Assembly: GCA_005792545.1 (NCBI GenBank)
Contig: SXRM01000185.1
Location: 1-46,612, forward strand
Reading direction: 5' to 3'
DNA: 46,612 nt
From: Pseudomonadota bacterium
GTDB lineage: Bacteria > Myxococcota_A > UBA9042
Shown: positions 26,001 through 46,612 of the stretch, piece by piece
Position numbering within the stretch: position 1 is the stretch's first letter
Layout of the letters: every line of letters begins with the position of its first letter
Program-made: the position numbers and the translations under genes
Notes under the pieces: generated by a model
Databases searched by the model: none
Told to the model about the DNA's origin: nothing
The model's input: the letters and a program-made list of their open reading frames with translations, nothing else

Positions 26001-26016
26001 TGCCGATTTTTCGGCA
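26001..26016. promoter_or_regulatory. palindrome TGCCGATTTTTCGGCA, putative enhancer site A1
   Basis: Perfect 6-bp inverted repeat around TTTT, 41 bases upstream of the HxsB-like start and about 495 bases upstream of the operon A -24 element. It is identical to the sites at 34655 and 37680. The role as an activator-binding site is inferred from recurrence upstream of sigma-54 promoters. Confidence 0.6.
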
Positions 26017-26240
26017 CCCGACGCCGGACACCAATGCGGCCAGGCCAATCAGCAGGATCGGCCATGGCCGGACGCGATGCGTCATGGCGGTGTCACGCGG
26101 GCGGCGCTGCCGTTTGGCACCGGCTCAAAGCGGAGCTTTCGGACTGACACTGGCCGGAAGTGGGCGGATCGCACGAGGCGGCGGCGACCTTCCCCGACTT
26201 TGGAGGCCGTTGCGGACTCACAGCGGCTGCGGCGGGCGTG

Positions 26241-26278
26241 CGCCGATTTTTCGGCAGGCCGTTGCCGAAGAACCGGCC
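26241..26278. promoter_or_regulatory. tandem pair of palindrome sites A2/A3, putative enhancer
   Basis: CGCCGATTTTTCGGCA at 26241-26256 (one base from the consensus) and a weaker TGCCGAAGAACCGGCC at 26263-26278. Their centres are 22 bp apart, about two helical turns, as expected for two dimers on one face of DNA. The pair lies about 230-255 bases upstream of the operon A -24 element, a usual distance for a sigma-54 enhancer. Confidence 0.6.
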
Positions 26279-26470
26279 TGCGAAGTTGCTGCATGTTTTA
26301 CTGGGTTTGCGCATCGTTGAGGCCGCCCCGCGCTCGGTGCACGTCCCGCGGGCGGCAACGCCGGCCTCGTTTGCCGCGGCATGGTGCCACCCCGGCGCGC
26401 AGTTTAGGTGTCCACTGACGGTCGACCTGCGGAGGACTACACATTGATATTCAGCAACTTGTCGGCCATG

Positions 26471-26486
26471 CGCCGAAAAAACGGCA
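26471..26486. promoter_or_regulatory. degenerate palindrome site A4 adjoining the operon A promoter
   Basis: CGCCGAAAAAACGGCA, the reverse complement of a two-mismatch version of the consensus palindrome. It ends 15 bases before the -24 box at 26501. In this place a bound protein could hinder rather than help polymerase, or the site may be a weak remnant. Confidence 0.4.
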
Positions 26487-26500: not shown

Positions 26501-26517
26501 TTGGCAAGGAATTTGCA
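26501..26517 (+). promoter_or_regulatory. putative sigma-54 (-24/-12) promoter of operon A
   Basis: TTGGCAAGGAATTTGCA has GG at 26503-26504 and GC at 26515-26516 with exactly ten bases between, and differs from the TGGCACG-N4-TTGC consensus by one base. Transcription would begin near 26528, just ahead of an AGAGG ribosome-binding site (26531-26535) that serves the GTG start at 26542. Confidence 0.7.
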
Positions 26518-26541: not shown

Positions 26542-27216
26542 GTGCCTATTGCCTACCCTCCGAACGCCAAAACCCAGCCCGCAGCGCCGACAGCCTTGGC
26601 GCCTGTGCGCGCGTTGTCCGCTGCGATGGCGCACCTCGCGCTCGCTGCCGTTGCGTGCACTGGCCTGGGCGCTTGCGGCGACGACCAGGTGACGCACGCA
26701 CGAGTCCCCAAGACCGCCGCAAAGGTCGAAGCGGCAACGCCGGCGGCACCGGTCGGGGTTGCTGCTTCGCCCCAAGCGGAGTCGCAAGCGGGCAAGGCCA
26801 GTGTTCGCCCAGCTTGGACTGTGCCCGCCAACTGGAAACAGGTACCCGGCAGCGGCATGCGCTATGCGACGCTGCAGGCCGACGCGCCAGGAGCGCCTGA
26901 AATCACAGTGGTCATGCTGGGCGGCGCAGCCGGCGGCGAGTTGGCCAACGTCAACCGCTGGCGGGGACAGGTTGGCCTCGCGCCGGTCGACGAGGCGGCC
27001 CTGGCCGGGCTGCGCACGACGGTGACCTCCAAGGTCGGACCGGTGCAGGTCTATGACTTCGCGGGCCAAGGTGCAGACGCGACGCGAATGCTGGCGGCGA
27101 TCTGGACCGACGCCAACGGCGACACGTGGTTCTTCAAGACCAACGGCAGCCCGGCGGCGGTCGACAGCGTCCGCCCTGGGCTCCTTGCCACGCTGGAGAC
27201 GCTTCGCCTTGAGTAA
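26542..27216 (+). CDS. lipoprotein, paralogue of the 33.9-kb lipoprotein
   Basis: 224 residues from GTG 26542, chosen because AGAGG precedes it by 6 bases and it fits the promoter; a GTG at 26605 (V-R-A-L-S) and an ATG at 26626 are alternatives. The signal ends in a lipobox (C-T-G-L-G-A-C-G). After an Ala/Pro linker the mature domain has P-A-N-W-K-Q-V-P near 100, then N-V-N-R-W-R-G-Q, a G-Q-G-A-D motif and W-F-F-K-T-N-G. The gene at 33899 shares this order (N-V-T-R-W-C-G-Q, T-W-Y-F-K), so the two are paralogues. Function unknown; it opens the operon for cytochrome c maturation and the decahaem cytochrome, so a role in haem or cytochrome handling outside the cytoplasm is likely. Confidence 0.78.
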   Translation: MPIAYPPNAKTQPAAPTALAPVRALSAAMAHLALAAVACTGLGACGDDQVTHARVPKTAAKVEAATPAAPVGVAASPQAESQAGKASVRPAWTVPANWKQVPGSGMRYATLQADAPGAPEITVVMLGGAAGGELANVNRWRGQVGLAPVDEAALAGLRTTVTSKVGPVQVYDFAGQGADATRMLAAIWTDANGDTWFFKTNGSPAAVDSVRPGLLATLETLRLE

Positions 27217-28396
27217 CCAACCAGAAAAGTCCATTGCGGTTGCATTGCTAGACGCGCTGACATCGCTCAAGCTCGCCATTGTCTTGTTGGCGCTGCTGAT
27301 GGTGCTGGTGCTGGCGTGCACGCTGGCTCAGGTCGATCTTGGCACCCACGGCGCCGTCGAACGTTACATGCGCAGTTGGCTGGTGTGGTGGCGACCCGAC
27401 GGCGCGTCGTCGTCGATCCCAGTCCTGCCAGGCGGCACCCCGGTGGGTGGCCTGCTCATCGTGAACCTGTCCGCAGCCCAGATCCGCAAGTTGCAGCTGA
27501 ACTGGCGCAAGGCTGGCCTCTGGCTCATCCACATTGGCTTGATCCTGCTGGTCGCCGGCGAGTTCGTGTCGGCGATGCTGCAGGTCGACGCGCGGCTGAC
27601 TTTCGAGGAAGGCCACAGTGCCAATTACGTCGAACGCACACGGCAGTACGAGGTGGCAGTCGTCGATACGAGCGACCCGAAATTCGACGACGAATTCGGT
27701 ATCCCCGAGTCGCTGCTGCGCGACGGCGCGACGCTAACCATCCCCAAGACGCCGCTACAGGTCAAGGTCGTCGCGTACATGCGCAACAGCGAGTTGCGCA
27801 ATCGCGCGGACAAGGACCCCAAGTCGAACGCGACCGCCGGCGTCGGTCCAGAAATCACCGTTCAGGGTCTGCCGCCGGTCACGGCCGACGACGCCCAGGA
27901 CACGCCTTCTGCCTACATCGATGTGCTGGCAGGCGGAAGCAGTAAAGGCGTGTTCCTGCTCAGCGCCGGTATTTCTGCCGTTCAGGGCTTCAGCCACGGC
28001 GGGCGCACGTACCGGCTCGACCTGCGGCTGCGCCGCGAGTACCTGCCGTACTCGCTCACGCTCAAGGACTTCAGTCACGACGTCTATCCCGGAACCGACA
28101 TTCCCAAGAACTTTTCGAGCCTTGTGCGGCTATTGCACCCCGAGCGCGGTGAAGATCGCACGGTTCTCATCTACATGAATCAGCCGCTGCGCTACGAAGG
28201 TCGCACCTTCTATCAGGCGAGCTTTGGCAAGAACGACACCATGAGCGTGCTGCAGGTGGTGCAGAACCCCGGGTGGCTGATGCCGTACGTGTCGTGCACG
28301 TTGGTCACTCTGGGGCTGCTGATTCACTTTGGGCTCAGTTTGGGCCGGTTGCAGCGGCGTCAAGTCCGCACGGCAACCGCGGTAGGGGCAACATGA
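27209..28396 (+). CDS. resB: cytochrome c biogenesis protein ResB-like (System II)
   Basis: 395 residues. Start taken as TTG 27209, overlapping the lipoprotein stop by 8 bases, with GGAG ten bases upstream; the longer frame has no membrane signature. Transmembrane helices occur at about 18-38, 95-120 and near the end (Y-V-S-C-T-L-V-T-L-G-L-L-I-H-F-G-L), with a large extracytoplasmic region between helices 2 and 3 (about 125-355) as in ResB/Ccs1. With CcsA it forms the System II machinery that moves haem out and attaches it to C-x-x-C-H motifs. Directly coupled to ccsA by an ATGA overlap. Confidence 0.88.
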   Translation: MSNQPEKSIAVALLDALTSLKLAIVLLALLMVLVLACTLAQVDLGTHGAVERYMRSWLVWWRPDGASSSIPVLPGGTPVGGLLIVNLSAAQIRKLQLNWRKAGLWLIHIGLILLVAGEFVSAMLQVDARLTFEEGHSANYVERTRQYEVAVVDTSDPKFDDEFGIPESLLRDGATLTIPKTPLQVKVVAYMRNSELRNRADKDPKSNATAGVGPEITVQGLPPVTADDAQDTPSAYIDVLAGGSSKGVFLLSAGISAVQGFSHGGRTYRLDLRLRREYLPYSLTLKDFSHDVYPGTDIPKNFSSLVRLLHPERGEDRTVLIYMNQPLRYEGRTFYQASFGKNDTMSVLQVVQNPGWLMPYVSCTLVTLGLLIHFGLSLGRLQRRQVRTATAVGAT

Positions 28397-30186
28397 ACGG
28401 CCGGCGCATTCTACTTGGGTTCGCTGCTGTGACCGCAACGCTGATTGCGGCCAGTGGCTTTTTCGATAGTGGCAAAGGCCGACAGGGCGTGGACGTCGTC
28501 GCGTTCGGCCAACTGCCGGCGCAAGAAGGTGGGCGCATCAAGCCCATCGACAGCCTCGCCCGCAACGCGCTGCTGATGATTCGCAGTAAGCAAACCGTGC
28601 GCGCCGATGGCCGAACGCTGTCGGCCACCGAGTGGCTGCTCGACACGATGTTCCGGCCTCAACTGGCGGATACCTACCCGATTTTCGTGGTCGATGACCC
28701 GGACGTGTTGGGGCTGATGGGCATGCCCCAGACGGCGGAGCGCTATTACAGCTTCGACAGACTGCGCAACCACACCAGCAAAGTCCAGGCGCAGGCCAGT
28801 GCCGCGCGGCGGGTCGACGCCAAGCAGCGCACACGCTTTCAGTCGGCGGTCGTCCAACTGTTCGACCGCATGTACCTGTACTACCGCATCAAGCACACGC
28901 TGCAGATCGAAGGCGGCGCGGGCCTGGCCGACGAACTTGCGCGGGCGCATACGCAAGCGGGGCAAGAGCGGGCGCAGGCCATTGCCGAACTGGCGTACTT
29001 CCGCGTGTTGCCCTCGACGGGCAAGGGCGACTGGCGCAACGTCGGCGAAGGGATGATGGCGCTGCACGCCGGCATGCCGCAGCCGGTCCTTGAGCACTAC
29101 GCCGCCCTGCAAAAGGCCTACGTCGCTGGCGATGCCACTGCCTTCGCTGCCGCCTGCACCAAGGTCCTCGATGCAGGCCACAGGGCCGATGCAGAAGCGG
29201 TTGGCGTAGCGGGGCACGAGCTGCAGTTCAATCGCGCGCAGCCCTTCTATAACGGCATGGTGCTGTACGTCGTGGCGCTGCTGCTGCTATTCGCCAGCTG
29301 GGCCTACAAGCCCGAGACGCTGCGGCCGCTGGCCTACGTGCTGTTGATCGCCGGCCTGATCGTGCACACGGGCGGTCTGGTCTCGCGCACCATCGTGCAG
29401 GGCCGGCCGCCGGTCACCAACCTGTACTCGTCCGCGGTGTTTGTCGGCTGGGGCGCGGCGCTGCTGGGCGCGGTGCTGGAACGGATGTATCGCAACGGCT
29501 TTGGCGCGGTGGTCGCGGCGGCCAGCGGATTTGTGTCGCTCATCGTCGCCCATCACCTAGCCGCAGACGGCGACACCATGGAGATGATGCGCGCGGTGCT
29601 CGACAGCAACTTCTGGCTGGCCACCCACGTCATCACCATCACCATCGGCTACAGCGGCACATTCGTCGCCGGCGCCATTGCAGCTGGCTGGGCCATCCGC
29701 CGCCACGCTCTGCGCAACCCCGATCCGCAGGCCAGCAAGTCGCTGGCGTCGATGACCTACGGCATCCAGTGCTTCTCGCTGTTGTTCAGCTTTGCCGGCA
29801 CGGTGCTGGGCGGCATCTGGGCCGATCAGTCGTGGGGGCGCTTTTGGGGTTGGGACCCCAAAGAAAACGGCGCGCTGCTCATCGTGCTGTGGATCGCCAT
29901 CCTGATGCACGCGCGTTGGGGCGGCTACGTGCGCGAGCGCGGCTTGATGGCGATGTCCATCGCCGGCATGGCGATCACGGCGTTTAGCTGGTTCGGCGTC
30001 AATATGCTGGGCGTTGGTCTGCACTCCTACGGTTTCACGGACAAAGCGTTCAGCGCACTCGCTGGCTTCATGGGTCTGTGTGTGCTGCTGCTTGGCTTAT
30101 GCCTGGCTCCCCCTCGCTTCCGCGTCGTTCGGACGTTGGCGGCGGGCTTGTCCTTTCAAAACGGTGCCGCGACACCGCATGGGTGA
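28393..30186 (+). CDS. ccsA: cytochrome c biogenesis protein CcsA-like (System II)
   Basis: 597 residues; ATG 28393 overlaps the resB stop. The haem-handling Trp-rich motif W-G-R-F-W-G-W-D-P-K-E-N is at about 482-493, and a conserved H-H-L lies near 393. Multiple membrane helices fill the C-terminal 320 residues. The N-terminal 280 residues include G-G-R-I-K-P-I-D-S-L-A-R-N-A and a long soluble helix region; this extended form is known from Planctomycetes and Myxococcota CcsA proteins (recollection). CcsA and ResB together make the haem lyase for the many haems encoded downstream; the next gene, the decahaem cytochrome, begins 4 bases after the stop. Confidence 0.9.
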   Translation: MNGRRILLGFAAVTATLIAASGFFDSGKGRQGVDVVAFGQLPAQEGGRIKPIDSLARNALLMIRSKQTVRADGRTLSATEWLLDTMFRPQLADTYPIFVVDDPDVLGLMGMPQTAERYYSFDRLRNHTSKVQAQASAARRVDAKQRTRFQSAVVQLFDRMYLYYRIKHTLQIEGGAGLADELARAHTQAGQERAQAIAELAYFRVLPSTGKGDWRNVGEGMMALHAGMPQPVLEHYAALQKAYVAGDATAFAAACTKVLDAGHRADAEAVGVAGHELQFNRAQPFYNGMVLYVVALLLLFASWAYKPETLRPLAYVLLIAGLIVHTGGLVSRTIVQGRPPVTNLYSSAVFVGWGAALLGAVLERMYRNGFGAVVAAASGFVSLIVAHHLAADGDTMEMMRAVLDSNFWLATHVITITIGYSGTFVAGAIAAGWAIRRHALRNPDPQASKSLASMTYGIQCFSLLFSFAGTVLGGIWADQSWGRFWGWDPKENGALLIVLWIAILMHARWGGYVRERGLMAMSIAGMAITAFSWFGVNMLGVGLHSYGFTDKAFSALAGFMGLCVLLLGLCLAPPRFRVVRTLAAGLSFQNGAATPHG

Positions 30187-30190
30187 TATC

Positions 30191-33100
30191 ATGAAAGCGA
30201 TTTCTACTCTGGCGCTTTGGCGCCATCTGGTCCCAATCGGCACCGCTGCGTGTTTGGTGGCTTGCGCCGCTGAACCGGGGGCTGCGGGCAAGGACGGGGC
30301 GACCTGCACGCTCACGGACAAGGGCGGCGGGGTCAAGGAAATCAAGTGCGGCGATGCCGCGCCCATCACCATCAGCGACGGCACCGCCGGCAAAGATGGC
30401 AAGGACGGCAAAGAAGGCAAGGCGGGCATCGACGGCAAGAACGGCCAGGATGGCACGGCCGGCAAAGACGGGGTCGCGGGGGCCGCAGGCAAGGACGGCG
30501 CTGCGGGCAAAGACGGCGCACCCTGTGACGTCAAAGACAACGGCAACGGCACCAAGACCGTGACCTGCGGCAGCTACTCGGTCACGCTTGCCGACGGCGC
30601 AACAGGCACGGCAGGCAAGAACGGCGCGGACGGCAAGCCCTGCGAGGTCAAGGACAACGGCAACGGCACCAAGACCATCACCTGCGCGGGCGTCACCGTG
30701 GACCTGCCAAGCGGCCCGACCGGCACCACCGGTCCAGCTGGCCCCGCGGGCGCAGCCGCCAAACCTTGCACCGTCACCGACGGCGGCATGGGGCTCAAGA
30801 CCATCGTGTGCGCAGACGGCAGCAAAGTCACCGTCGCCGACGGCGCCATCGCCAATGACTGGAAGATCGACCGCTTCCATGGCACCAAGTACCTGCAGAC
30901 CAGCGGCAACTTCAAGACCAACGGCAAGGTCCTGGTCAAGGCGGTCATCACCGACGCCACGGCAGACGTGTCGGGCAAGGTCGTGGTCAAGTTCAAGGTC
31001 AACAACCAAGACAAGTCGCCAGGCGTGCCGGGCGATCCGGTCACCACGCTGACCTCGCTGTCGTCGAACATCGCCAAGCTGGTCCCGGCGGGCAATGGCG
31101 ACGCTTCGAGCAAGTGGGTGCCTTACATCCAGAACCCGGCGGCCGTCACCGTCACCACCGCGACCGCGGGTCCGTGGCCCAACCCGGCCGGGTACACCGT
31201 CTACCAGGCCGGCAGCGACAGCTGGAATGTCGACCCGACCAAGGGCGGCACGCTCGTCAACAACAACGACGGCACCTACGTCTACACCTATCTGCGCAAC
31301 ATCGCCGCCGTCAAGCTGGCCGCTCTGACCACCCCGGTGACACCCGAACAGGTCATCACCTACGACCGATCGGCCAAACACCGGATCCAGATCATGATGG
31401 GCGGCAGCACCGGCCCCACGGCCAACGCGGTTTACAACTTCATCCCCGACGGCAGCACCACCAACCTGCTCTTGACGCGCGACATCGTCGACACGGAAAC
31501 CTGCAAGAGCTGCCACGGCTGGGACTTCCGCGCCCACGGCGGCAACCGCTTGGAGGTCGACGGCTGCACCAACTGCCACAACCCGAGCACCACCGACCCG
31601 CAAAGTGGCAACACGGTGGACATGAAGGTGATGATCCACAAGATCCACGCCGGCAGCCATGTGGCGAGCATCAAGGGCGCGGACGGCAAGGTCTTCAATG
31701 ACCCCGCCACCGCTGAAGACGAGTCGGCCGACAACGGCAAGTACTACATCTGGGGTAACAGCAACAGCAAGTGGACGTGGTGGAAAGTGGGCTTCCCAGC
31801 CGAAACCGCGAACTGCGAGAAGTGCCACCAGGGCAAAGCCCCGCAGACGGACAACTGGAAGAAGGTCTACTCGCGCGCCGCCTGCGGCAGCTGCCACGAC
31901 ACCATCAACTGGGCCGACGGCACCGGCCACAAAGGCGGCAAGCAACTGAGCGACGACAACTGCACCAGCTGCCACCAGGCTGGCGGTCTGGCCGTCGATA
32001 CGGTCGATGCGCACAACTGGACGGTCAAGGACTTCCGCAACATCCCCGAGTTCACCGCCAAGGTCACGGTGTCGACGCCCAAGAACGGCACCCACTTTGT
32101 CGCCGGTGAAGCCCCGATCGTCACGGTTCAACTGACCGACGAAAACGGCAAGCTGCTCGACCACACCACCATTGAGGAAGACGCTGCGGCCGAAACTTGC
32201 CCCACTGCGTCTGCCAAAGACTGCACCCCGCGCGACGGCAAGTTCCGCACCGCTGCGCTGTTTGTCCACGGTCCGCGCAGCAACAACAACCCGGTGCTGA
32301 CCACCGCGGCGCGGGCGCAGATTTTTTCGACGACTGCGGGTCCGTGGGACCTGAGCAGCGCACCGACGGCAACCACCTTCCAGATCAAGATCGACGGCGG
32401 ACGCGATCTGTGGAGCAAGGCGACGCCGAGCGCCGACAACTCGATCATCAAGCCGTTCGACACCTACCAGCCGGGCAACCTCACGCTGACGACCACCGCC
32501 ACCACGTTTGCCAACAAGGCGGCAGTGACGCCCGCAGACTTTGCCAAGTGGCTCAATGCCAACGCGCAGTTCAAGGCGCGCGCCATCGCGTGGGTCGACA
32601 CCCCAAGCGGCAAGCTCGGCATCCGCAGTCGCAACCTGGGCGTCACCTACTCGGTGCAGCTGCAGGCCGGCACCTTCACGACGCTGATCTTCAACAACGA
32701 CATCGCCTACAAGAGCACCACGGGCTCCACGCCTGGCAACAACTGCAGCAAACGCACGCTGCCTGCCAACGAAGACCCCAAGGTGACCCGTACGGCGGAC
32801 GCGATCACCTACCAACTGGACCCGGTTGACGATCTGCGGGTCGGTACCTACACCGCCGACATCGAATTCGCCGACCGCGGCAACACCAGCGGCACCGACT
32901 ACAAGACGCCAACAGTTGCCCGCGCGACGTTCCAGGTCGGCAGCGCCACGCCGGAGAAGCCGGTCGCCGACGGCTGCGCCAACTGCCACCAGCACCAAGG
33001 CAAGGGCCTGGTCGTCGACGCACGTCGCCACAACAAAGCGCTGGAAGACGACGCGATGGACCGCTGCGGCAGCTGCCACGATTACCAGTCGCAGAACCCG

Positions 33101-33615: not shown

Positions 33616-33760
33616 GTTGGACCCGGCGGCTGAAGCCGCAGGCTAGCTGTACAAAGCCCGGCCTGCGCCGGGCTGGGCTGTCACTCGTGATTGCGTAGCC
33701 TAGCGGAGGCAAGGCTTTGCACCCGAAGGCCGCGGCTTCAGCCGCCGGCAGTATTTGCGA
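33616..33760 (-). repeat. 145-bp structured intergenic repeat, copy 2 (inverted)
   Basis: Reverse-oriented copy of the element at 16654-16798, also 145 bases. It has the same terminal GGCGGCTGAAGCCGC/GCGGCTTCAGCCGCC palindromes, the AGCCCGGC-CTGC-GCCGGGCT hairpin (33654-33673) and a counterpart of the AGCCTTGC hairpin with one stem mismatch. Even flanks match (TCGCAAATACTG side and GTTGGACC/GTTGAACC side). It sits between the operon A terminator and the next lipoprotein gene. Confidence 0.85.
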
Positions 33761-33898
33761 CCACTGCGCATTTACCAGCCCGCGGGTCGGCCCCACTTGA
33801 GGAACCGCACCCTCGTCGCTCAGGGACCATTGCAAAACCAGCTTGCAGCGGGTCGAATACGCCCCCTCGCGCGCACCGGCGCGCCCCAAGGAGTCCCG

Positions 33899-34654: not shown

Positions 34655-34670
34655 TGCCGATTTTTCGGCA
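34655..34670. promoter_or_regulatory. palindrome TGCCGATTTTTCGGCA, putative enhancer site B1
   Basis: Exact consensus; here the dyad extends three more bases each side (34652-34673), giving a 9-bp stem. The centre is about 203 bases upstream of the operon B -24 element. It also lies 31 bases after the preceding stop, so a terminator-like hairpin role cannot be excluded, but no T-run follows it. Confidence 0.6.
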
Positions 34671-37805: not shown

Positions 37806-37854
37806 ACGCAGCGGTGGTGACGTCGCTGGCTGTGCCGGTGCCGCGGAGTGGACG

Positions 37855-40659
37855 ATGAAAACGACAGGCAGGCGCTGGGTGGCAGGGTTGGCGGCGCTGG
37901 CGATTGCGGCCTGCGAAGGCGGCGAAGGACCGGCAGGGGCCGCAGGCCAGAATGGAACCGGCGGAGCGCAGGGCCTGCCAGGCGAGCCTGGTGCAAAAGG
38001 AGACCCAGGTACCAAGGGCGACAAGGGCGATCCGGGCGCGACGGGTACCGCCGGCGTCAATGGCACCAAGGGCGACAAAGGTGAACCAGGCAAGGACGGC
38101 GTAGACGGCGCCGACGGCGCGACTGGCACGACCGGCGCCAAAGGCGAACAGGGTCCTGCCGGCCCCAAAGGCGACAAGGGCGATCCGGGCAATTCGGCCG
38201 CCACCGTGGGCACAATCGCCGGCACGGTCACAGCGGCAGTCGATGGCAAACCGGTCGTCGGCGCGCAGGTCACCACCAACCCAGCTGGCGCAACGGTCGC
38301 AACGGACGACCTGGGTGCGTTTACCCTGGCCAAGCTGCCGATCGGCGCCTACACGGTGACCGTCAACGCCAAGGGCTACGCGACCGCCACGGCGGCCGGC
38401 ATTGGCGTGGCCTGGGAGGCGACGACCAAGCTGTCGATTGCACTGGTCACCGGAGCGCCCGGCGGTGCCGCGCCGACCGTTTCTGCGCAAGAGCCCTCTA
38501 CGGTGGGCTTTGGCCAGGCCGTCAAGTTGGCAGCGACCGTTGCCGATGCCGACAACCCGACCGAGCAACTCACGGTGGTTTGGAAGCAGGTGTCCGGCAA
38601 GTCCGTGGCACTCAAGGCGACCGGCGGGCAGGTTGAGTTGACCACGCCGACGCTGCTGGACCTCAAGGGCGCGCCGCCGCGGACCGAAGTCATCGGCCTG
38701 TCGCGCGACGAGACGACGCTGCGCTTGCAGGTGACGGCGACCGATCCGCAGGGTCATGCGACGACCGCGATCCTGGCTATCAAGCTGGCAGACCCGTCGC
38801 CCGGCCTGCGCACCGTGCCGTTGGGCCTGCCGGTGTATCTGGGCGCACCCGTCACGCTCGACAAGGCCGGCAAGCCGATTGCCTGGCAGTGGTCGCTGGA
38901 CACGGCAGGCGCGGTTGGCAGCAAGGCCGCCCTGCCTAACCCTGGGGCGCAGTTCGTGGCGTTCACGCCGGACATCGCCAAGGGTGTCTACAAGATCAGC
39001 GAAGCCGCCTCGGGCAAGACGCTGACCATCTATGCGGGCGCCTGGGTTGGCGTGGGCGGCGCCGACGGCATGTGCACCGCTTGCCACAGCGGCAGTTTCG
39101 CGCCCGACAACTTCACGCCTTGGCAAAAGACCAAGCACTTCACGGCAATGGCAGATAAGTTCGACGGCAAGAAAGGCGCGTTTGGCCCAGAGTGCCTCGC
39201 CTGTCACACGGTCGGCTACAACGAGTCGGTCGGCAACGCCGGCTTTGACGACCTTGCCAAGACCGCCAACTGGCAGATCGGCAAGGGCGCTGCCGGCACT
39301 TGGGCTGCGCTGAGCAAGGACAACAAGGCGTTGGCGCAACTGGCCGGGGTGCAGTGCGAAAGCTGCCACGGCCCGCAGGCTTCGGCGGCACACGGCAGCA
39401 ATCCCGCCATCGACGTGCCGGCGCGGGTGTCGTGGGGCAGTGCGGTGTGCAACACGTGCCACAGCGACGGCGGGCAATACCCGATCGGCGGGCAGTGGGC
39501 CGGCAGCAAGCACAACAACCACGGTCTGACCGTGCTCGAAGCGACGTTCGAGAAGCGCGGCACCACCGCCGCGCACTGCGGCCGCTGCCACTCAGCGCAG
39601 GGCTTCGCGCTCTATGCCAAGCAGCTGACCAGTGGCGTGACCGGGTCGCTTGTCAAACCGGATGGCAAGCCGGCCGACGAGGCATTCTTGCGCGGCCTCG
39701 GCTTGGAGACCGCGAGCGTCCAGACCATCGGCTGCTCGGCGTGCCACAACCCTCACGACGCCAGCAACCCGGCGCAGTTGCGCATCGGCGGCGAACTGGC
39801 GGCGCTGCCCAACGGCATGACCGCAATCAAAGGCGCAGGCACCGGCACCCTGTGCATGGCCTGCCACAACACCCGCAACGGCGAACACACCGACTTTGTC
39901 GCCGCCCCTGCCAACTTCTCGGCGCCGCACTCGCCAGCGCAGACCGATGCCCTTTACGGCTTCAACGCCTACTTCGTGCCGCGCTACACGCCGGGCGGTC
40001 ACCTGGCTGTCAAGGACACCTGCGCCAGTTGCCACGTAGCGATCCCGCCGGCGTCTGGCGGCAACACCAACCACGGCTTCAAGGTCGACAGCGGCTTGTG
40101 CAAGAACTGCCACTCCAACTGGGTGGACGGCGAGGCGCTGCAAGCGTCCTACGAGGCCCAACTGCTGACGTTGGAAACGGCGATAGCGGCCAAGGCCAAG
40201 GCCGCCATCGCGGCCGCCATTGGCGTCTCTGGCAACAAGGTGACGGTCGTTGCCTTCAACCCGGATCCGGCCAAGCCGTTCTACTCGGCGGCCATCGAGC
40301 TGACCGCCGCGCCCGAGAAAGTCGAGCTGACCGAATTCGCAGGGCAAAGCGCCTTCGTTTTGCACCTCGCCAACGCCGTGACCGCCAACTGGGTCGACGC
40401 CAGCGGCAATCCGGCCAAAGACGCCGCGGGCAATCCGTTGGCTGTCGCGAGCCTGAAAGACTTGCAGGTGCGCGCCGGCGACCTCAAGGTCGCCAAGGGC
40501 AGTTCGGCCGTTGTCACCGTCATCGACCCAGCGGGCGACCTCAATAAGGCCATGTGGAACGTGCACCTGCTGCTGGGCGACGGGACCCGCGGGGTGCACA
40601 ACCCGACGTTCTACAAGTCGGTTATTGCGGCGACCACCGCCAAGGTCAACGCGCTGTGA
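37855..40659 (+). CDS. nonahaem c-type cytochrome with collagen-like and carboxypeptidase-regulatory-like domains
   Basis: 934 residues, ATG 37855; lipoprotein signal (L-A-A-L-A-I-A-A-C, Cys about 20). Residues about 25-115 are collagen-like Gly-x-y repeats (G-E-P-G-A-K-G-D-P-G). Then a CarboxypepD_reg-like domain (G-T-I-A-G-T-V-T-A-A-V-D-G-K-P, about 118-195) and a PKD-like beta domain. Nine C-x-x-C-H: CTACH (about 406), CLACH, CESCH, CNTCH, CGRCH, CSACH, CMACH, CASCH and CKNCH (about 750). A haem-free region of about 180 residues ends it. Probably outer-surface or periplasm-spanning electron carrier. First gene of operon C; its stop overlaps the 26-haem gene start (GTGA). Confidence 0.88.
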   Translation: MKTTGRRWVAGLAALAIAACEGGEGPAGAAGQNGTGGAQGLPGEPGAKGDPGTKGDKGDPGATGTAGVNGTKGDKGEPGKDGVDGADGATGTTGAKGEQGPAGPKGDKGDPGNSAATVGTIAGTVTAAVDGKPVVGAQVTTNPAGATVATDDLGAFTLAKLPIGAYTVTVNAKGYATATAAGIGVAWEATTKLSIALVTGAPGGAAPTVSAQEPSTVGFGQAVKLAATVADADNPTEQLTVVWKQVSGKSVALKATGGQVELTTPTLLDLKGAPPRTEVIGLSRDETTLRLQVTATDPQGHATTAILAIKLADPSPGLRTVPLGLPVYLGAPVTLDKAGKPIAWQWSLDTAGAVGSKAALPNPGAQFVAFTPDIAKGVYKISEAASGKTLTIYAGAWVGVGGADGMCTACHSGSFAPDNFTPWQKTKHFTAMADKFDGKKGAFGPECLACHTVGYNESVGNAGFDDLAKTANWQIGKGAAGTWAALSKDNKALAQLAGVQCESCHGPQASAAHGSNPAIDVPARVSWGSAVCNTCHSDGGQYPIGGQWAGSKHNNHGLTVLEATFEKRGTTAAHCGRCHSAQGFALYAKQLTSGVTGSLVKPDGKPADEAFLRGLGLETASVQTIGCSACHNPHDASNPAQLRIGGELAALPNGMTAIKGAGTGTLCMACHNTRNGEHTDFVAAPANFSAPHSPAQTDALYGFNAYFVPRYTPGGHLAVKDTCASCHVAIPPASGGNTNHGFKVDSGLCKNCHSNWVDGEALQASYEAQLLTLETAIAAKAKAAIAAAIGVSGNKVTVVAFNPDPAKPFYSAAIELTAAPEKVELTEFAGQSAFVLHLANAVTANWVDASGNPAKDAAGNPLAVASLKDLQVRAGDLKVAKGSSAVVTVIDPAGDLNKAMWNVHLLLGDGTRGVHNPTFYKSVIAATTAKVNAL

Positions 40660-43175
40660 AAACGCTCGCTGCCAGCCTGCGCCCGGCCTTGGCCGCTGCC
40701 GCGATCCTGGCGATCGCGTGCGGGTGCGACCATGCACGGCAGACAGCCGCCGCAGATGCCGGCGCAGACACCGCAGTTGCCGGCGGTTTCGCGCCGCAGT
40801 GCTCGGCGTGCCACGGTTCCACCGACAGCCCTGCCCCGCCGCGCGCCATCGGCGGCAAGGTCGACGTGGCGTGGCGCGGCGTCGGAGCACACCAGACCCA
40901 CGTGGCAGGATCGGCTTCGGCCAATCCGGTCGCCTGCGACAGTTGCCACGTCGTACCCAAGGGCTTGTGGGACGACAAGCACATCGACAGCGCCGACAAG
41001 CGCGCCACCGTGCAGTTTGGCGGCGCCGCGCTGTTCAAGGATGCTACGCCCACCTACAACCCGACCGACCTGACCTGTGCGACGACTTATTGCCACGGCG
41101 GCACGCTCAAGCCCGGCGGCAAGCACACGACGCCGCTGTGGACGCTGGTCGACGCGTCGCAGCGCGGCTGCGGGTCGTGCCATGGCGCGCCCCCGCCCAA
41201 GCCTCACCCCCAGACCGGCGACTGCATCGGTTGCCACGCCGCGACAGCCGGCCCCAAGGGCACCATCGCCCATAAAGACAAGCATATCAACGGTGTGGTC
41301 GAGGTGGTATTTGCGCAAAGTGTGGCTTGCAACGGTTGCCATGGCGCGCCGCCGCCCCAGACGGTCAAAGATCACCCGCAATTGGGCCAGTGCGAGCTTT
41401 GCCATGCGCAGACGGCCGGTCCGGGTCAGACCATCGCCAACCCAGCCAACCACATGAACGGCAAGGTCGAGGTCGCAGTCGCCGACGGGCAAAGCTGCAA
41501 CGCCTGCCACGGCTCGCCGCCGCCGCCCAGCGTCAAGAACCACCCGCAAAACAACGCCTGCGAGGCGTGCCACGTAGGGACGGCAGGGCCGGCCGGCACC
41601 ATTATCGACCCGCTTAAGCACCGCAACGGCAAGGTCGAGGTGCAGCTAAGTGCAGCCGCTCCCTGTGGCGCCTGCCACGGTGCCCCGCCGCCAGTCGGCA
41701 TCAACAACCACCCGCAGGACCAGAACTGCGAGGGCTGCCACGCCGCAACCGCCGGACCCAAGCAGACGATCGCCTTTGCCGACAAGCACATGGACGGCAA
41801 GGTGCAAGTGCAACTGCCGGGCGTCGGCGCGCCCTGCGCCGGCTGCCACGGGGCACCGCCGCCCAAGTCGGTCAAGAACCACCCGCAAGAGCAGAAATGC
41901 GAAGGCTGCCATGCCGGCAGCGTGGGCTTGAACCGGACCTTGCTCGTCGGCGGCAAGCACCTGGACGGCAAAGTCGATGTCGAACTTGCGCCGCTGTCGG
42001 CCCCGTGTGGCGCCTGCCACGGTGCCCCACCGCCCAAGTCGGTCAAGAACCACCCGCAAAGCACCCAGTGCGACGGCTGCCATGCGGCTACTGCCGGCGC
42101 CAACCAGACGCTGGCGGGCGCTGGACACCTCAACGGCAAGGTCGATGTCGTGCTGGGCGCAAACGCCCCGTGCGGCGCTTGCCATGGCGCGCCACCGCCG
42201 CCAACGGTCAAGAACCACCCGCAAAACAACAACTGCGACGGCTGCCATGCCGCTACCGCTGGACCTGACCAGACCATCGCCAACCCGACCAACCACCGCA
42301 ATGGCAAGGTCGAGGTCGCGTTCGGCGCCAGCGCCCCGTGCAAGTCGTGCCACGGCTTACCGCCCGTCAACAACCACCCGCAGATGTTGGAGTGCAGCAA
42401 GTGCCACGCAGCCAGCGTCGACGCGCAGGGCAAGCTGGAGCCTGGCGGCGCACACTACAACGGCAAGGTCGAGTTCAGCCTGGGCAATGCTGCCTGCGAT
42501 TCGTGCCACGGCGCCCCGCCCAAAAGTGCTGGCCACCCCAAAGTCGCCCAGTGCAGTTCGTGCCACGCCGCCACCACCGACCCGACGGGCAAGCTCGTAC
42601 CCAAGGGCGCGCACATCAACGGCAAGGTTGACGTGGCCATGTCGGAGAAGTGCGACGCATGCCACGGTGGCAATGGCTCAGCGGCGCCACCGCCTGACGT
42701 CAACGGCAAGACTGACCCGTCGCTGCCTACGGTGGGAGCCCACGCGGCGCATCTGCAGGGCAAGCAGTTCAGCAAGGGCGGCATGGCCTGCGAAGCGTGC
42801 CACGTCTTGCCGAAAACCACCCAGCAGCCCGGGCACTTACAGGGCACGTTGGCTTCGGTGAAGTTCCCGGGCTGGTTGGCCAATTGGAAAGAGGCCAAGC
42901 CGACCTACGACAAGGCGACCTTGACCTGCAATGCCGTCTATTGCCACGGCGCGACCATGGAGGGCGGCACGATGCCAGCACCCGTGTGGAACCAGGGCGG
43001 CATGGTCTGCGGGTCGTGTCACGGCCTGCCGCCATCGCCCGCCAGCGGCCACCCCGTGTTCGACCAGGCCAAGGGCATCCAGTATTGCAATCATTGCCAC
43101 AGCTTGACGGTCAAGCCCGATGGCACGCTGGACCAGGCCGGCGGCTGGCACATGAACGGGATGGTCAACCCATGA
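40656..43175 (+). CDS. 26-haem lipoprotein cytochrome with di-haem repeats
   Basis: 839 residues from GTG 40656 (overlaps the preceding stop). Lipoprotein signal (A-A-A-I-L-A-I-A-C, Cys about 22). I count 24 C-x-x-C-H plus two C-x4-C-H motifs (C-A-T-T-Y-C-H and C-N-A-V-Y-C-H), 26 in all. The C-x4-C-H...C-x-x-C-H layout (T-L-T-C-N-A-V-Y-C-H...C-G-S-C-H) is the Geobacter-type haem module. Between the two end modules are nine di-haem repeats of about 55 residues: C-H-G-A-P-P-P, K-N-H-P-Q, C-x-x-C-H-A-A-T-A-G, H-x-N-G-K-V-E-V. It probably forms a long haem wire. It sits directly before the beta-barrel gene (ATGA overlap) and may be the outer-face cytochrome of the conduit. Confidence 0.9.
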   Translation: MKTLAASLRPALAAAAILAIACGCDHARQTAAADAGADTAVAGGFAPQCSACHGSTDSPAPPRAIGGKVDVAWRGVGAHQTHVAGSASANPVACDSCHVVPKGLWDDKHIDSADKRATVQFGGAALFKDATPTYNPTDLTCATTYCHGGTLKPGGKHTTPLWTLVDASQRGCGSCHGAPPPKPHPQTGDCIGCHAATAGPKGTIAHKDKHINGVVEVVFAQSVACNGCHGAPPPQTVKDHPQLGQCELCHAQTAGPGQTIANPANHMNGKVEVAVADGQSCNACHGSPPPPSVKNHPQNNACEACHVGTAGPAGTIIDPLKHRNGKVEVQLSAAAPCGACHGAPPPVGINNHPQDQNCEGCHAATAGPKQTIAFADKHMDGKVQVQLPGVGAPCAGCHGAPPPKSVKNHPQEQKCEGCHAGSVGLNRTLLVGGKHLDGKVDVELAPLSAPCGACHGAPPPKSVKNHPQSTQCDGCHAATAGANQTLAGAGHLNGKVDVVLGANAPCGACHGAPPPPTVKNHPQNNNCDGCHAATAGPDQTIANPTNHRNGKVEVAFGASAPCKSCHGLPPVNNHPQMLECSKCHAASVDAQGKLEPGGAHYNGKVEFSLGNAACDSCHGAPPKSAGHPKVAQCSSCHAATTDPTGKLVPKGAHINGKVDVAMSEKCDACHGGNGSAAPPPDVNGKTDPSLPTVGAHAAHLQGKQFSKGGMACEACHVLPKTTQQPGHLQGTLASVKFPGWLANWKEAKPTYDKATLTCNAVYCHGATMEGGTMPAPVWNQGGMVCGSCHGLPPSPASGHPVFDQAKGIQYCNHCHSLTVKPDGTLDQAGGWHMNGMVNP
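41163..42660 (+). repeat. tandem di-haem repeat array in the 26-haem cytochrome gene
   Basis: Nine diverged in-frame repeats with period about 160-171 bases (55-57 residues), each starting at a GCCATGGC/GCCACGG-type CHGAPPP segment (for instance near 41178, 41338, 41508, 41677, 41848, 42018, 42181, 42348, 42509). Middle units are closest to one another; the last two are degenerate. It implies growth by internal duplication. Confidence 0.8.
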
Positions 43176-44653
43176 GGCGCGTCCTCTCGGCAACGCTGGC
43201 CGGTCTGGCAGGCCTGCAACTGACCTGTCTCGATGCATTGGCGGGCGACCTGCACGGCAGCGTGCGCAGCCTGACCTGGGGCAGTCGCGAACTGGTGCCG
43301 GGCGGCTGGGACCGGACCCAGCCGACCCTGCCGACGCTGCAGCATCTGTCGCTGCGCGGCGACGGCCTGGGCGGCACCGGCTTGTACTTCGATGGCTCTG
43401 CGTTTGCGATGCAGCAACTCGACGGCGCGGGAAGCAAGCCGGCGCGACAGGGCGACTTGCTATATGGGTTCTTGGGTTGGCAAAACGCCGCACGCTCAAT
43501 GCGCGTGCAGGTTGGCCGGCAGCTGGTGCTGTCGGGGGCGCCGCGCTACACCACGCTCGACGGTGTTTTTGCGGAGCTCCTGCTGCCCGCTGACCTGCGG
43601 CTACAAGCGCATGGCGGTACAGCCGTTTTCTCTGGATTTGACCACGCGCTGACAGCCCCAGTCGTCGGTGCCCGTGTGCAATGGCAGCCGGCGATGCGCG
43701 GCCACCTGGCCGTCGCCTTTCAGGACGTCTCGGGGCTGACAAGGGCTACGCGCCGAACCATCGGCGCCGATTTTTCGGCACGGCTGCCGCAAGGGCTGGC
43801 GCTGGTCGGTAGCACTGCTTTCGACTTGCTGGGACGGGGCCTGCAAGACGCCCGCCTCGACCTGTCGCAGCGGCCGCGGCCTTGGCTGGGTCTGCATGTG
43901 CGCGGCGAAGTGCGCGATCCACTGGCGTACTTGCCAGCCGACTCGATCTTCCAGGCGTTCGTGCAGCGCACCGATGGCATCGTTGGCGCAGGTTTCGATG
44001 TCCAAACGCCGGGAGCCCTGTACGGCTCAGGCAGCTACGACCGCTTTGTCGTCACGGACGACCATCAAGATGGTTACCGCGGGCAGTTGGACGCCGGTCT
44101 CAGGCTGGGTGACCAGGGCGACGATCGCGCCGGCGCAACCGTGGCGCGCGTCGGCACTGGCGACAACGGCTACAGCCAGGCCCGCCTGTGGTGGCGCGGC
44201 CGGGTCGGACAAGCCTGGCGCGCGGCCGTCGATCTGGACGCGCTGTGGTACTTCAAGCCGATCCGCGGCCATGACCAATCGCTGGTCGGGACCGGCAGCT
44301 TGCGCTGGATGGGCGTCGTCGGCCTGCAAGCGGGCGTCGACGCGCAGGTGTGGAGCAACCCGTCGTTTACTTCGCAAACCATGGTGCTGGCGACGCTGAC
44401 CGCAACCGACGAACTGTTGCGCGGCCCAGCGCCACCTCCGCCGCCACTGACACCACCCAAGGGAAAAGACGACGACGAGGACGAAGAAGAAGACGAGGAC
44501 AAGGGCGATGCCAAGCCCGCGCCCAAACCAGAGTCAGCGCCCGCCGATGACGGCAAGCCCGAGTCCAAGCCCAAAGACGGCGACGACGAGGACGACGGTG
44601 CCGCAGGCCGTCAGAAGGCCGATGCCGTGGCAAGCGTTGGGGGGCAGCAATGA
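43172..44653 (+). CDS. outer-membrane beta-barrel, candidate porin of the cytochrome conduit
   Basis: 493 residues; ATG 43172 overlaps the 26-haem stop (ATGA). Sec signal with A-L-A-G-D cleavage near residue 25. Residues about 25-420 alternate polar and hydrophobic residues with aromatic girdle positions (G-T-G-L-Y-F-D-G-S-A, R-M-Q-V-x-R-Q-L-V-L-S type strands, L-D-A-L-W-Y-F), as in transmembrane strands; enough for roughly 18-20 strands, the size of the smaller Geobacter-type conduit porins rather than Shewanella MtrB. The last 75 residues are Pro-rich then very acidic (D-D-D-E-D-E-E-E-D-E-D), unlike usual outer-membrane protein ends. Lying between the 26-haem and 13-haem genes it fits the porin of a porin-cytochrome complex. 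No sequence family is certain. Confidence 0.7.
   Translation: MRRVLSATLAGLAGLQLTCLDALAGDLHGSVRSLTWGSRELVPGGWDRTQPTLPTLQHLSLRGDGLGGTGLYFDGSAFAMQQLDGAGSKPARQGDLLYGFLGWQNAARSMRVQVGRQLVLSGAPRYTTLDGVFAELLLPADLRLQAHGGTAVFSGFDHALTAPVVGARVQWQPAMRGHLAVAFQDVSGLTRATRRTIGADFSARLPQGLALVGSTAFDLLGRGLQDARLDLSQRPRPWLGLHVRGEVRDPLAYLPADSIFQAFVQRTDGIVGAGFDVQTPGALYGSGSYDRFVVTDDHQDGYRGQLDAGLRLGDQGDDRAGATVARVGTGDNGYSQARLWWRGRVGQAWRAAVDLDALWYFKPIRGHDQSLVGTGSLRWMGVVGLQAGVDAQVWSNPSFTSQTMVLATLTATDELLRGPAPPPPPLTPPKGKDDDEDEEEDEDKGDAKPAPKPESAPADDGKPESKPKDGDDEDDGAAGRQKADAVASVGGQQ
43765..43780. promoter_or_regulatory. palindrome copy inside the beta-barrel gene
   Basis: CGCCGATTTTTCGGCA, identical to site A2, inside coding sequence (A-D-F-S-A). 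Significance unknown. Confidence 0.35.
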
Positions 44654-45759
44654 AACCGGCCGCCACCACCACCTTGCGCGTTTGCGCGCTGATCGCGATG
44701 GGTGCGCTGCCCGGTTGCGGATGGCTGGTCGGCTCTTGGGCCGGCAGCCCGCAGACAGACAACCCGCGCGATCACCTGATTTTCTCGCACAAGAAGCATG
44801 TCGTCGACGAGAGCGTGGCCTGCGGCGACTGCCACGCCAACATCAAGGCCTCGGAGTCGCTGACCACCGCGCGCGACATTCCCGCCGAGAAGACCTGCCT
44901 CGAGTGCCACGACAAGGCGGACAACTGCAAGCAGTGTCACGCCAACCCCAAGATGCCGGCGACCTGGCGCCAGGACGATCGCCTGGGCGGTCTGCGGTTT
45001 TCGCACAAGGCTCACGCCGCGCGCGCGCTGCCGGGCGAGGCGACGCCGGTTGCCTGCGACGTCTGCCACGGCGACATCAAGGACGCGGAAAAAGCCAGCG
45101 CCAGCAAGCGACCGCCTATGTTCGCTGCCTGCGGCCAGTGCCACCAGCGCGACTTCCGCCGCGACGACTGCGCGCGGTGTCACGAGGCGGGCACACCGTA
45201 CGGCCGAATGGGCTCGGACATTTTCGATCACGGCGGTGGCAATTGGCTGCGCCGCCACGGCACGGCCGCCAAGGGTGCGGAGCCGGTGTGCGCGCACTGC
45301 CACAAGCAGGACAGCTGTTCCGAATGCCACAGCCGCTCGAACCTGCCGCTGCGGCCTGCGCTACAGCGCTGGGACCGTCCGGACGCCAACGCCCAGCATC
45401 GCGGCGACTGGACCACGCGGCACACCATTGAGGCGCGCTTGGACGGCAAGTCGTGCGCAAGCTGCCACGAGCAATCCACCTGCCAGGACTGCCACTTGCG
45501 CAGCGGCGTCGGGTCCATTGGCAAGGCCAACTTGCGCACGCCGCATCCGGCGCAATGGCTCAAGCGCGGTGGGGCAGAGTTTCATGGCTCCGCAGCGTGG
45601 CGTGACCCTGCTGGCTGCGCCAGTTGCCACGATCGCGGCACTGCTAGCAACTGCGTCGACTGCCACAAAGTCGGCGGCAGCGGCGGCAATCCGCACCCGC
45701 CCGGCTGGCGATCCGCGGCGGACAAGGCCAGCAGTCCAGCCTGTACGGCTTGCCACTAG
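44650..45759 (+). CDS. 13-haem lipoprotein cytochrome, MtrA-like role
   Basis: 369 residues; ATG 44650 overlaps the barrel gene stop. Lipoprotein signal (A-M-G-A-L-P-G-C, Cys about 23). Thirteen C-x-x-C-H motifs: CGDCH, CLECH, CKQCH, CDVCH, CGQCH, CARCH, CAHCH, CSECH, CASCH, CQDCH, CASCH, CVDCH and CTACH, the last being the C-terminal five residues. F-S-H-K-K-H and F-S-H-K-A-H supply distal His as in cytochrome c7/MtrA-like proteins. Spacing of about 25-30 residues per haem suggests a compact rod that could fill the barrel from the periplasmic side; MtrA of Shewanella has ten haems. Last gene of operon C. Confidence 0.88.
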   Translation: MKPAATTTLRVCALIAMGALPGCGWLVGSWAGSPQTDNPRDHLIFSHKKHVVDESVACGDCHANIKASESLTTARDIPAEKTCLECHDKADNCKQCHANPKMPATWRQDDRLGGLRFSHKAHAARALPGEATPVACDVCHGDIKDAEKASASKRPPMFAACGQCHQRDFRRDDCARCHEAGTPYGRMGSDIFDHGGGNWLRRHGTAAKGAEPVCAHCHKQDSCSECHSRSNLPLRPALQRWDRPDANAQHRGDWTTRHTIEARLDGKSCASCHEQSTCQDCHLRSGVGSIGKANLRTPHPAQWLKRGGAEFHGSAAWRDPAGCASCHDRGTASNCVDCHKVGGSGGNPHPPGWRSAADKASSPACTACH

Positions 45760-45999
45760 GCGACCATTTCGGCTTCGCCAGATCCTGAAGCTGCGGGCAG
45801 CCCGGCCGACTGAGGCGGGAAGAGCCCGCGGCGCGGGAGACGGCGGATTTGCGGCGGACGAGTTAGGGACTGGAAAACAGTAACTTGAACACTCTCGGCA
45901 CAACGCGGAGCCGCGAGTCGGCCGCCGAGGCCGCGAACTGGCGACCCACTGAGCAAGCAAGTGGGCCTGGAAATAATTTAGTAAATCATTTCCACGCCC
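45760..45999. other. convergent intergenic region
   Basis: 240 bases between the convergent 13-haem gene and the enhancer-binding protein gene. It contains a CCCACT...AGTGGG stem (45945-45965) and an AT-rich hairpin GGAAATAATTT...AAATCATTTCC (45970-45994), either of which could act in termination for one or both genes. No coding frame. Confidence 0.5.
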
Positions 46000-46612
46000 T
46001 TACGGCGAACGGCCCAGCTTGCTCTGCAGCGTCGTGCGCGCCAGGCCGAGGTTCTCGCTGGCCCTGGACTGCTGGCCGCCGGCCCGTCGCATTGCCCATT
46101 GGATGATGGCGTCTTCAAAACGCCGCACTGCGTCGGGCAGGTTGACGGAGGTCCGGCCTTCCAAGTGCAGCGTAAAGACATCGTCGGTGACGACGACGGG
46201 CGGACTTGTGCGCAGAAAGCTCGGCAGGTGGTCCGGTCCAATCGGTCCGGATCCCGCAAAAGTCATTGCCGACTCCATGGCATGCCGCAGTTCGCGGACG
46301 TTGCCTGGCCAACTGTAGCGACAGAGCGCGGCCGCTGCCTCGGAGTGCAGTTCGGGAACGGCCTTGCCGCTCTCGGCTGCGCGCCGGCGCAAATAGTGCT
46401 GGGCCAACAACAGCACATCGTCGCCCCGATCGCGCAGCGGCGGCAGGCGGATCTCCAGCGCGCGCAAGCGGTAAAAGACGTCGTCGCGAAACTTACCCTT
46501 GGCCACGGCGTCGACCAGGTCCACCTTGGTCGTGGCAATCACCCGCACGTCGGTCTGGGCCTCGCGACTGCCACCTACACGGGTGAACGTGCCCTCTTGC
46601 AGCGCGCGCAAC
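46000..46612 (-). CDS. sigma-54-dependent enhancer-binding regulator, C-terminal part
   Basis: The frame runs off the right edge; the last 203 residues are seen. They include the end of the AAA+ domain: V-R-V-I-A-T-T (sensor I), F-R-D-D-V-F-Y-R-L (arginine-finger region), L-P-P-L-R-D-R-G-D-D, and W-P-G-N-V-R-E-L-R (sensor II). After a linker comes a Fis-type HTH (D-A-I-I-Q-W-A-M-R-R, then A-R-T-T-L-Q-S-K-L). The GAFTGA loop and N-terminal signal domain are outside. It should activate RNA polymerase with sigma-54 from distant sites. Its closeness to three sigma-54-type promoters with shared palindromes makes it the natural candidate to control the cytochrome operons; this is inference. Confidence 0.92.
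   Translation of the reverse strand, partial: LRALQEGTFTRVGGSREAQTDVRVIATTKVDLVDAVAKGKFRDDVFYRLRALEIRLPPLRDRGDDVLLLAQHYLRRRAAESGKAVPELHSEAAAALCRYSWPGNVRELRHAMESAMTFAGSGPIGPDHLPSFLRTSPPVVVTDDVFTLHLEGRTSVNLPDAVRRFEDAIIQWAMRRAGGQQSRASENLGLARTTLQSKLGRSP

Follow-up and report, generated by a model that had tools for sequence, protein, structure and literature searches.

A shared palindrome and a linked NtrC-type activator as a candidate sigma-54 switch for an electron-export island

How bacteria time the building of the costly machinery for extracellular electron transfer is poorly understood. We analysed a contig of 46,612 nucleotides (SXRM01000185.1, GenBank assembly GCA_005792545.1), hereafter the window, from a Pseudomonadota bacterium placed by GTDB in lineage UBA9042 of Myxococcota_A. 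A 16-base palindrome, TGCCGA-N4-TCGGCA with an A/T-rich centre (search pattern TGCCGAWWWWTCGGCA), recurs there before three operons for cytochrome maturation (A), the quinol side (B) and a putative outer-membrane conduit (C), and the window ends in part of the gene for an NtrC-type sigma-54 activator. The distribution of the sites in this and related genomes makes it likely that the palindrome is the binding site of the linked activator, which would co-induce the three operons. An earlier note, made from the letters of the window, had proposed that the regulator governs these operons through the palindrome; site distribution supports that proposal, and what the note missed is a RegB-like sensor partner encoded beside the activator.

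In the circuit that we propose, a predicted six-helix kinase bearing the motif GGxxNPF would sense the quinone pool's redox state and, in response, phosphorylate the NtrC-type activator. Dimers or higher oligomers of the activator would bind the sites, which are often in tandem about two helical turns apart, and would loop to sigma-54 polymerase some 90-250 base pairs (bp) away, leading to transcription. A further site pair, spaced by about 100 bp and placed before the kinase gene, would serve as downstream enhancer of a one-haem cytochrome gene, as autoregulatory site of kinase and activator, or as both. We infer binding, sigma-54 dependence, the phosphorelay and quinone sensing from sequence comparison. 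The fullest version of this circuit, in which a RegB-type quinone sensor is wired to an NtrC-type sigma-54 activator and the whole island (maturation, quinol oxidation, conduit, one-haem carrier and regulator) is switched as a unit by the quinone pool, partly via a downstream enhancer, is one that we hold tentatively and rate as somewhat short of probable. One palindrome, one sensor-activator pair and four sigma-54 promoters would make a compact, testable circuit, and the sensor motif points to the likely signal.

The palindrome is concentrated in one island

The window's own genome (G000) is a 7.03-Mb assembly of 435 contigs, 77.75% complete, in which the window is contig C113. At up to three mismatches, TGCCGAWWWWTCGGCA has 11 matches in the window, against a mean of 1.22 and a maximum of 6 in 100 shuffles: three are exact, four carry one mismatch, two carry two and two carry three. 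Nine of these are listed in Table 1; the others lie at 22748 (two mismatches) and 3310 (three mismatches), so that the earlier claim of a palindrome-free first 25 kb holds at up to one mismatch and fails below that stringency. Two intragenic sites, at 35523 and 43765, went unmentioned in the earlier note.

Over the whole assembly, eight sites appear at up to one mismatch, seven in the window and one on contig C248, while a reversed control pattern gives none. These two contigs represent 1.06% of the assembly and yet hold eight of the eight sites: at this stringency the palindrome is not scattered through G000, in keeping with the regulon first proposed. With two mismatches allowed, 30 sites are found (8 for the control), 11 of them on C113 or C248. 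Leaving the four central bases free at up to one mismatch barely exceeds the control (35 sites versus 32), so the A/T-rich centre is required for specificity.

The sequence can form a hairpin, and the sites at 34655 and 37680 follow the stop codon of the preceding operon, as might be expected of transcription terminators or of mobile or repeat elements lodged between operons. However, the A/T run lies in the loop, with no tail after the stem (by eye), no Rfam family matches the window at its gathering score, and the sites do not spread through G000 at up to one mismatch. Moreover, four related genomes (G010, G014, G017 and G019) carry them between divergent promoters at near-constant spacing to both. 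We therefore reject a terminator or repeat identity, on the A/T-containing loop, the divergent-promoter placement and the missing Rfam match, and consider it highly improbable.

The sites accompany sigma-54 promoters

Good -24/-12 promoters with palindromes upstream head the three operons, as the earlier note had recognized, although its coordinates (26501, 34863 and 37789) were one base low. They follow the consensus TGGCACGN4TTGCW with its GG/GC core, and G000 encodes RpoN (rpoN). The strict pattern TGGCRCGN4TTGCW, matched exactly, occurs 45 times in G000 against 8 for the control, with three occurrences in the island (34864, 37790 and C248 3159). The looser promoter pattern suggested in the note did not help: with two mismatches it has 57 matches in the window against a mean of 66.9, no better than chance, and the strict form alone is informative.

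Spacing was analysed over ten sequences from eight genomes, comprising 39 palindromes and 24 sigma-54 sites. For 16 of the 39 palindromes a sigma-54 site follows downstream at 0-260 bp, whereas random placement (5000 rounds) yields a mean of 0.95 and a maximum of 6. Seen from the promoters, 13 of 24 have a palindrome within 260 bp upstream and six have a palindrome pair 612-767 bp downstream. Tandem sites 20-22 bp apart recur across loci. This distance and those of 74 and 137 bp fit the whole helical turns previously noticed in the window, but a recurrent spacing of 100 bp does not, and the 22-bp partner at 26263 is a match with three mismatches (TGCCGAAGAACCGGCC, with CGCCGGAGAACCGGCA at the aligned position in the relative G002).

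Clusters of sites co-occur with the regulator in related genomes

We compared 36 genomes including G000, defining a cluster as at least two sites within 300 bp and a kinase orthologue by E<=1e-60. Activator orthologues of 64-84% identity occur in 7 of the 35 other genomes, in addition to two copies of 56% identity in G004; class-wide, 9 of 52 genomes (own included) have an activator match at E<=1e-55. Kinase orthologues are present in 10 of the 36 genomes, and palindrome clusters in nine of these ten versus none of the 26 others (Fisher p ~1e-7, with relatedness of the genomes left uncorrected). Across the eight genomes with an activator orthologue of at least 64% identity, G000 among them, 28 of 32 sites at up to one mismatch are on activator or conduit contigs (hand count).

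The proposed association with cytochrome genes and regulator orthologues is borne out in these relatives, where clusters stand beside the sigma-54 promoters of cytochrome, iron-sulphur (FeS)/NrfD, conduit and regulator operons. Related genera follow the same plan, with sites adjoining the sigma-54 promoters of tetrahaem/FeS/NrfD operons, of barrel-conduit operons and of the regulator's own operon. In G010, G014, G017 and G019, sites spaced by 137 bp lie between two divergent sigma-54 promoters, one for a cytochrome-barrel operon and the other for a tetrahaem/FeS/NrfD operon; the nearest site edges are 106 and 147-148 bp from these promoters.

G007, for which the homologue search gave no close activator match, has palindromes and a sigma-54 site in front of its tetrahaem/FeS operon. 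Contig C777 of G007 carries sites in the gap between the gene of a one-haem cytochrome, which has no sigma-54 site at up to one mismatch, and a kinase gene that encodes GGxxNPF and is cut by the contig end. This contig was reached twice independently, by the palindrome pattern and then by the kinase search; the palindrome may thus work as a finder, since C777 appears in the pattern results despite the lack of a close activator match. Elsewhere in G007, three palindromes (L068, contig C821, 540-656) precede an open reading frame (ORF; 703-3180) whose repeats resemble EF-hands and which may be another member of the regulon. G004, of the same genus, has two diverged kinases (C242 and C347), the two activator copies already mentioned, which share 56% identity with that of the window, and palindromes that follow the same consensus (loci L063 on C242, L064 on C570, L065 on C347 and L066 on C145). 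One of its kinases lies close to a seven-haem ORF that is a relative of the ten-haem cytochrome in the window, which suggests, as far as sequence relationships go, that the switch was duplicated along with another conduit.

As a control we took 22 NrfD loci of other lineages (L076-L097, 257,890 bases), labelled mostly Planctomycetes, Gemmatimonadetes and Kuenenia, with one Deltaproteobacterium and one uncultured bacterium. These loci, many of them so short that distant regulators would be missed, contain no palindrome, one sigma-54 site in total, no activator match at E<=1e-8 and a single 73-residue match to the catalytic end of the kinase.

The linked activator

The last gene of the window does encode an enhancer-binding protein with a Fis-type helix-turn-helix (HTH), as first described, but it is read from the minus strand, and the window contains only the 203 residues at its C-terminal end. 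The N-terminal 262 residues open contig C248 (L009 1-786, minus strand) and end where the window's 203 residues start; after them come the genes for the kinase and the one-haem cytochrome and another two ORFs, in the gene order that G002 shows directly past its conduit operon. Synteny and protein continuity place C248, in all likelihood, just beyond the window end. Because C248 continues the activator and matches the G002 order, it is most likely that all eight G000 sites are part of a single island.

The activator consists of a receiver, Sigma54_activat and HTH_8, whole in G002 and G019 and in two contig-cut pieces in G000. Its sigma-54-contacting loop reads GAFTGA or GSFTGA in nine of nine copies from relatives and GAFTGA in the C248 piece. 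The recognition part of the HTH, GLARTT(L/F)QSK, is found in all ten island activators and in none of 12 other sigma-54 activators hand-picked from the homologue search.

Could a regulator encoded elsewhere, such as a repressor, bind the palindrome while the linked activator acts through other sites at these promoters? The weak site at 26471 has a repressor-like position, 15 bp before the -24 element, and a repressor could also bind the sites before the kinase gene. The clustering in nine of ten kinase genomes and none of the others speaks against it, as do the many sites at enhancer distance from sigma-54 promoters and the conservation of the activator's recognition part in the nine genomes with activator sequence available. 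We regard such a regulator as unlikely.

A RegB-like kinase and the one-haem cytochrome

HisKA and HATPase domains are recognized in the kinase, together with a PilS-like membrane part, PF25323, which scores close to the family cut-off of 27 bits (four kinases gave 29.5, 27.5, 25.6 and 22.9). Its structure model, with a mean predicted local distance difference test (pLDDT) score of 74, shows six long N-terminal helices (22-53, 59-81, 89-113, 121-135, 138-161 and 188-265), and GGxxNPF occupies residues 115-121, right after helix 3 and between helices 3 and 4. This motif is present in 11 of 11 kinases (nine of nine aligned, the G007 kinase and the second G004 copy). PMC8191878 and PMC10525716 give GGXXNPF as the quinone-binding heptapeptide of RegB. 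The two kinases scanned match NF033792 (RegB/PrrB/ActS) over nearly the full length of that model, with 87.9 and 113.6 bits; these scores being below the cut-off, the kinase is RegB-like in motif and helices and is not filed as a member of RegB. The PilS-like kinase that G000 also encodes lacks GGxxNPF, and NF033792 is not among its best 25 families. A conserved redox-box cysteine is a mark of the RegB family. In the alignment of the island kinases a cysteine, Cys260 of the first sequence, lies 12 residues past the presumed phospho-acceptor His248 and is invariant in nine of nine; it could be a thiol redox switch.

In G000 and five genomes labelled g6, a sigma-54 promoter precedes the one-haem cytochrome gene, and a pair of sites 99-100 bp apart occupies the gap between the cytochrome and kinase genes; one site of the G000 pair carries two mismatches. 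G002 keeps the promoter core and has one two-mismatch site there. The core, TTGGCGCGA-N3-TTGCA, is identical in seven of seven aligned genomes, none of which has a palindrome upstream of this promoter (in G014 and G021 the sequence extends only ~160 bp before the contig ends). The five g6 genomes share an extended -10-like block, TTCTGNTANGCT, between the second site and the kinase start (alignment by eye). The arrangement suggests that the pair is a downstream enhancer, a site of kinase-activator autoregulation, or both, and the operon of the regulator itself and the one-haem cytochrome gene are probable members of the regulon.

The -10-like block, constant in all five g6 genomes, also accords with a narrower reading, according to which the pair does nothing but autoregulate the kinase-activator operon, the cytochrome promoter uses other sites and the quinone motif is a relic. 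This would have to be squared with an identical sigma-54 core that lacks any palindrome upstream, and with the retention of GGxxNPF in every kinase. It is a serious possibility, toward which we lean slightly less than not.

Weighing the proposed circuit

Several observations count against the activator and its kinase governing the island through the palindrome. The ends of C113 and C248, which synteny and protein continuity join, share no exact overlap longer than 10 bases. Within G000, two of the seven window sites at up to one mismatch (35523 and 43765) fall inside genes, the latter possibly a by-product of the protein code of the barrel, and one exact-arm site with a G/C-containing centre lies elsewhere (C114). 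Around five of the 24 sigma-54 sites, the 600 bp upstream and the 900 bp downstream hold no palindrome; these five include the promoters of G002 operon C, where the aligned site is degenerate, and of the G002 cytochrome gene. The 100-bp pair spans about 9.5 helical turns; therefore no simple same-face rule applies.

The comparison across genomes has its own weak points. The genomes are kin, so that the samples behind the kinase-cluster association are not independent. Four of the 32 sites lie off the regulator and conduit contigs (G002 C45, G009 C137, G014 C55 and G021 C64), and the 28 genomes without a 64% orthologue hold 41 sites at up to one mismatch, nine of them in G004 and G007 and the remainder scattered (hand count). 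Genomes that lack the kinase also show single, scattered matches to the exact loose-centre form. G009 is the one kinase genome without a cluster: its regulator has one exact and one two-mismatch site, and its NrfD operon, on another contig and at 53% identity, has no site at up to one mismatch in 12 kb. As for the signal, both kinases scanned miss the RegB family cut-off of 350 bits (NF033792), and quinone sensing is predicted from a single motif plus a structure model with a mean pLDDT of 74.

Gene content of the operons

Beyond its regulation, the island resembles an Mtr-like conduit in having a predicted barrel beside multihaem cytochromes, here neighbours of 13, 24, 9 and 10 haems (Table 1). 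From domains and neighbourhood, we infer that these genes would export electrons from the cell. The barrel has no Pfam or NCBIfam match at E<=0.001; its model has a mean pLDDT of 55.5, with poor confidence beyond the barrel part, and in fold it matches generic outer-membrane barrels, ushers and receptors, MtrB not being among the best 50 of 1007 Foldseek matches.

Table 1. Palindromes, promoters and genes of the island within the window
Feature	Position	Strand	Remarks
Palindrome TGCCGATTTTTCGGCA, exact	26001..26016	.	Upstream of operon A, 485 bp to -24
Palindrome, 1 mismatch	26241..26256	.	Upstream of operon A, 245 bp to -24
Weak tandem partner, 3 mismatches	26263..26278	.	22 bp from 26241 site
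Weak palindrome, 2 mismatches	26471..26486	.	15 bp before operon A -24
Sigma-54 type promoter, operon A, TGGCAAGGAATTTGCA	26502..26517	+	1 mismatch; -24/-12 core kept in G002
Operon A first ORF, no family	26542..27216	+	
ResB-like cytochrome c maturation protein	27053..28396	+	PF05140
CcsA/CcsB-like cytochrome c assembly protein	28273..30186	+	PF01578; TIGR03144 below cut-off
Ten-haem MtrC/OmcA-like surface cytochrome, collagen-like stretch	30014..33445	+	PF22113, PF22112, PF01391; 10 CXXCH
Operon A last ORF, no family	33755..34624	+	Relatives at 41-43% in G010, G014, G017
Palindrome, exact	34655..34670	.	Upstream of operon B, 193 bp to -24
Palindrome, 1 mismatch	34729..34744	.	Upstream of operon B, 119 bp to -24; 74 bp from 34655
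Sigma-54 type promoter, operon B, TGGCACGGTCCTTGCT	34864..34879	+	Exact consensus; identical in G002
Cytochrome c3-like ORF, operon B	34948..35619	+	Weak PF14537, below cut-off
4Fe-4S ferredoxin-like subunit, operon B	35430..36485	+	PF13247
Intragenic palindrome, 1 mismatch	35523..35538	.	Same G002 gene: no match at <=2 mismatches
NrfD-type quinol-side membrane subunit, operon B	36482..37651	+	PF03916
Palindrome, exact	37680..37695	.	Upstream of operon C, 94 bp to -24; degenerate in G002
Sigma-54 type promoter, operon C, TGGCGCGGGTTTTGCA	37790..37805	+	1 mismatch; identical in G002
Nine-haem cytochrome, collagen-like and CarboxypepD_reg parts, operon C	37801..40659	+	True start probably about 37857 (by eye)
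24-haem cytochrome, operon C	40554..43175	+	
Predicted outer-membrane beta-barrel, operon C	42797..44653	+	22 predicted strands
Intragenic palindrome, 1 mismatch	43765..43780	.	In barrel gene; G002 counterpart with 2 mismatches (L051 19392)
13-haem cytochrome, MtrA-like position in conduit	44650..45759	+	PF14522; 13 CXXCH
Sigma-54 activator, C-terminal 203 residues (AAA+ end, lid, Fis-type HTH)	46000..46611	-	Window's last gene

The cytochrome c3-like ORF of operon B, which the CXXCH tally of window ORFs left out, occupies the place of the four-CXXCH ORFs that precede the FeS gene in G002, G010, G014, G017, G019 and G007. A minus-strand ORF at 34711-35613, which overlaps it, was rejected as spurious. 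Collagen-like repeats in the two presumed surface cytochromes (30014-33445 and 37801-40659), and a CarboxypepD_reg part in one of them, are unusual extensions. A radical-SAM gene (24443-26065, minus strand) runs divergently to operon A. About 40 bp before its likely start (by eye) stands the exact 26001 palindrome, which may serve this gene too.

Comparison with known systems

A two-component sigma-54 regulon is a well-known kind of system. The island activator shares with the NtrC/AtoC class its receiver, AAA+ sigma-54 interaction domain, lid and Fis-type HTH, as well as dyad sites mostly ~90-250 bp before a -24/-12 promoter. It differs in having its own palindrome and an electron-export regulon, and its G002 orthologue stays under all 25 curated NCBIfam cut-offs shown (ntrC, 421.7 versus 558.6; AtoC, 414.1 versus 714).

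The kinase, for its part, resembles RegB/PrrB/ActS in its six predicted long N-terminal helices, in GGxxNPF after helix 3 and in the near full-length NF033792 match. Its partner is a sigma-54 AAA+ activator, whereas RegA, the partner of RegB, is not known to have an AAA+ domain. PilS/PilR offers another parallel, with a PilS-like membrane domain (PF25323) near the cut-off and a sigma-54 activator as partner. However, the island pair adjoins cytochrome genes and not pilus genes in the loci read, and G000 has a separate PilS-like kinase, without GGxxNPF, on C17 beside a PilC-like ORF (named by eye).

Sigma-54-type regulation of electron-transfer cytochromes is represented in Geobacter sulfurreducens by BccR/cbcBA. 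PMC2725144 describes an RpoN regulon in this species that covers flagella, pili, central metabolism and cytochromes, and that resembles our case in tying sigma-54 and linked activators to the cytochromes of extracellular electron transfer. According to PMC7962754, little is known in Geobacter about the regulation of extracellular electron-transfer genes, and the excerpts of PMC12307469 and PMC6295460 that we consulted contain nothing on regulation. Among the matches listed in literature searches on sigma-54, NtrC or activators and extracellular electron transfer, no title or abstract opening presents a RegB-like sensor with an NtrC-type activator. Compared with G. sulfurreducens, one palindrome and one linked sensor-activator pair here mark a single island, and the joining of a RegB-like sensor to an NtrC-type activator for one electron-export island looks, on a limited literature search, like a new pairing.

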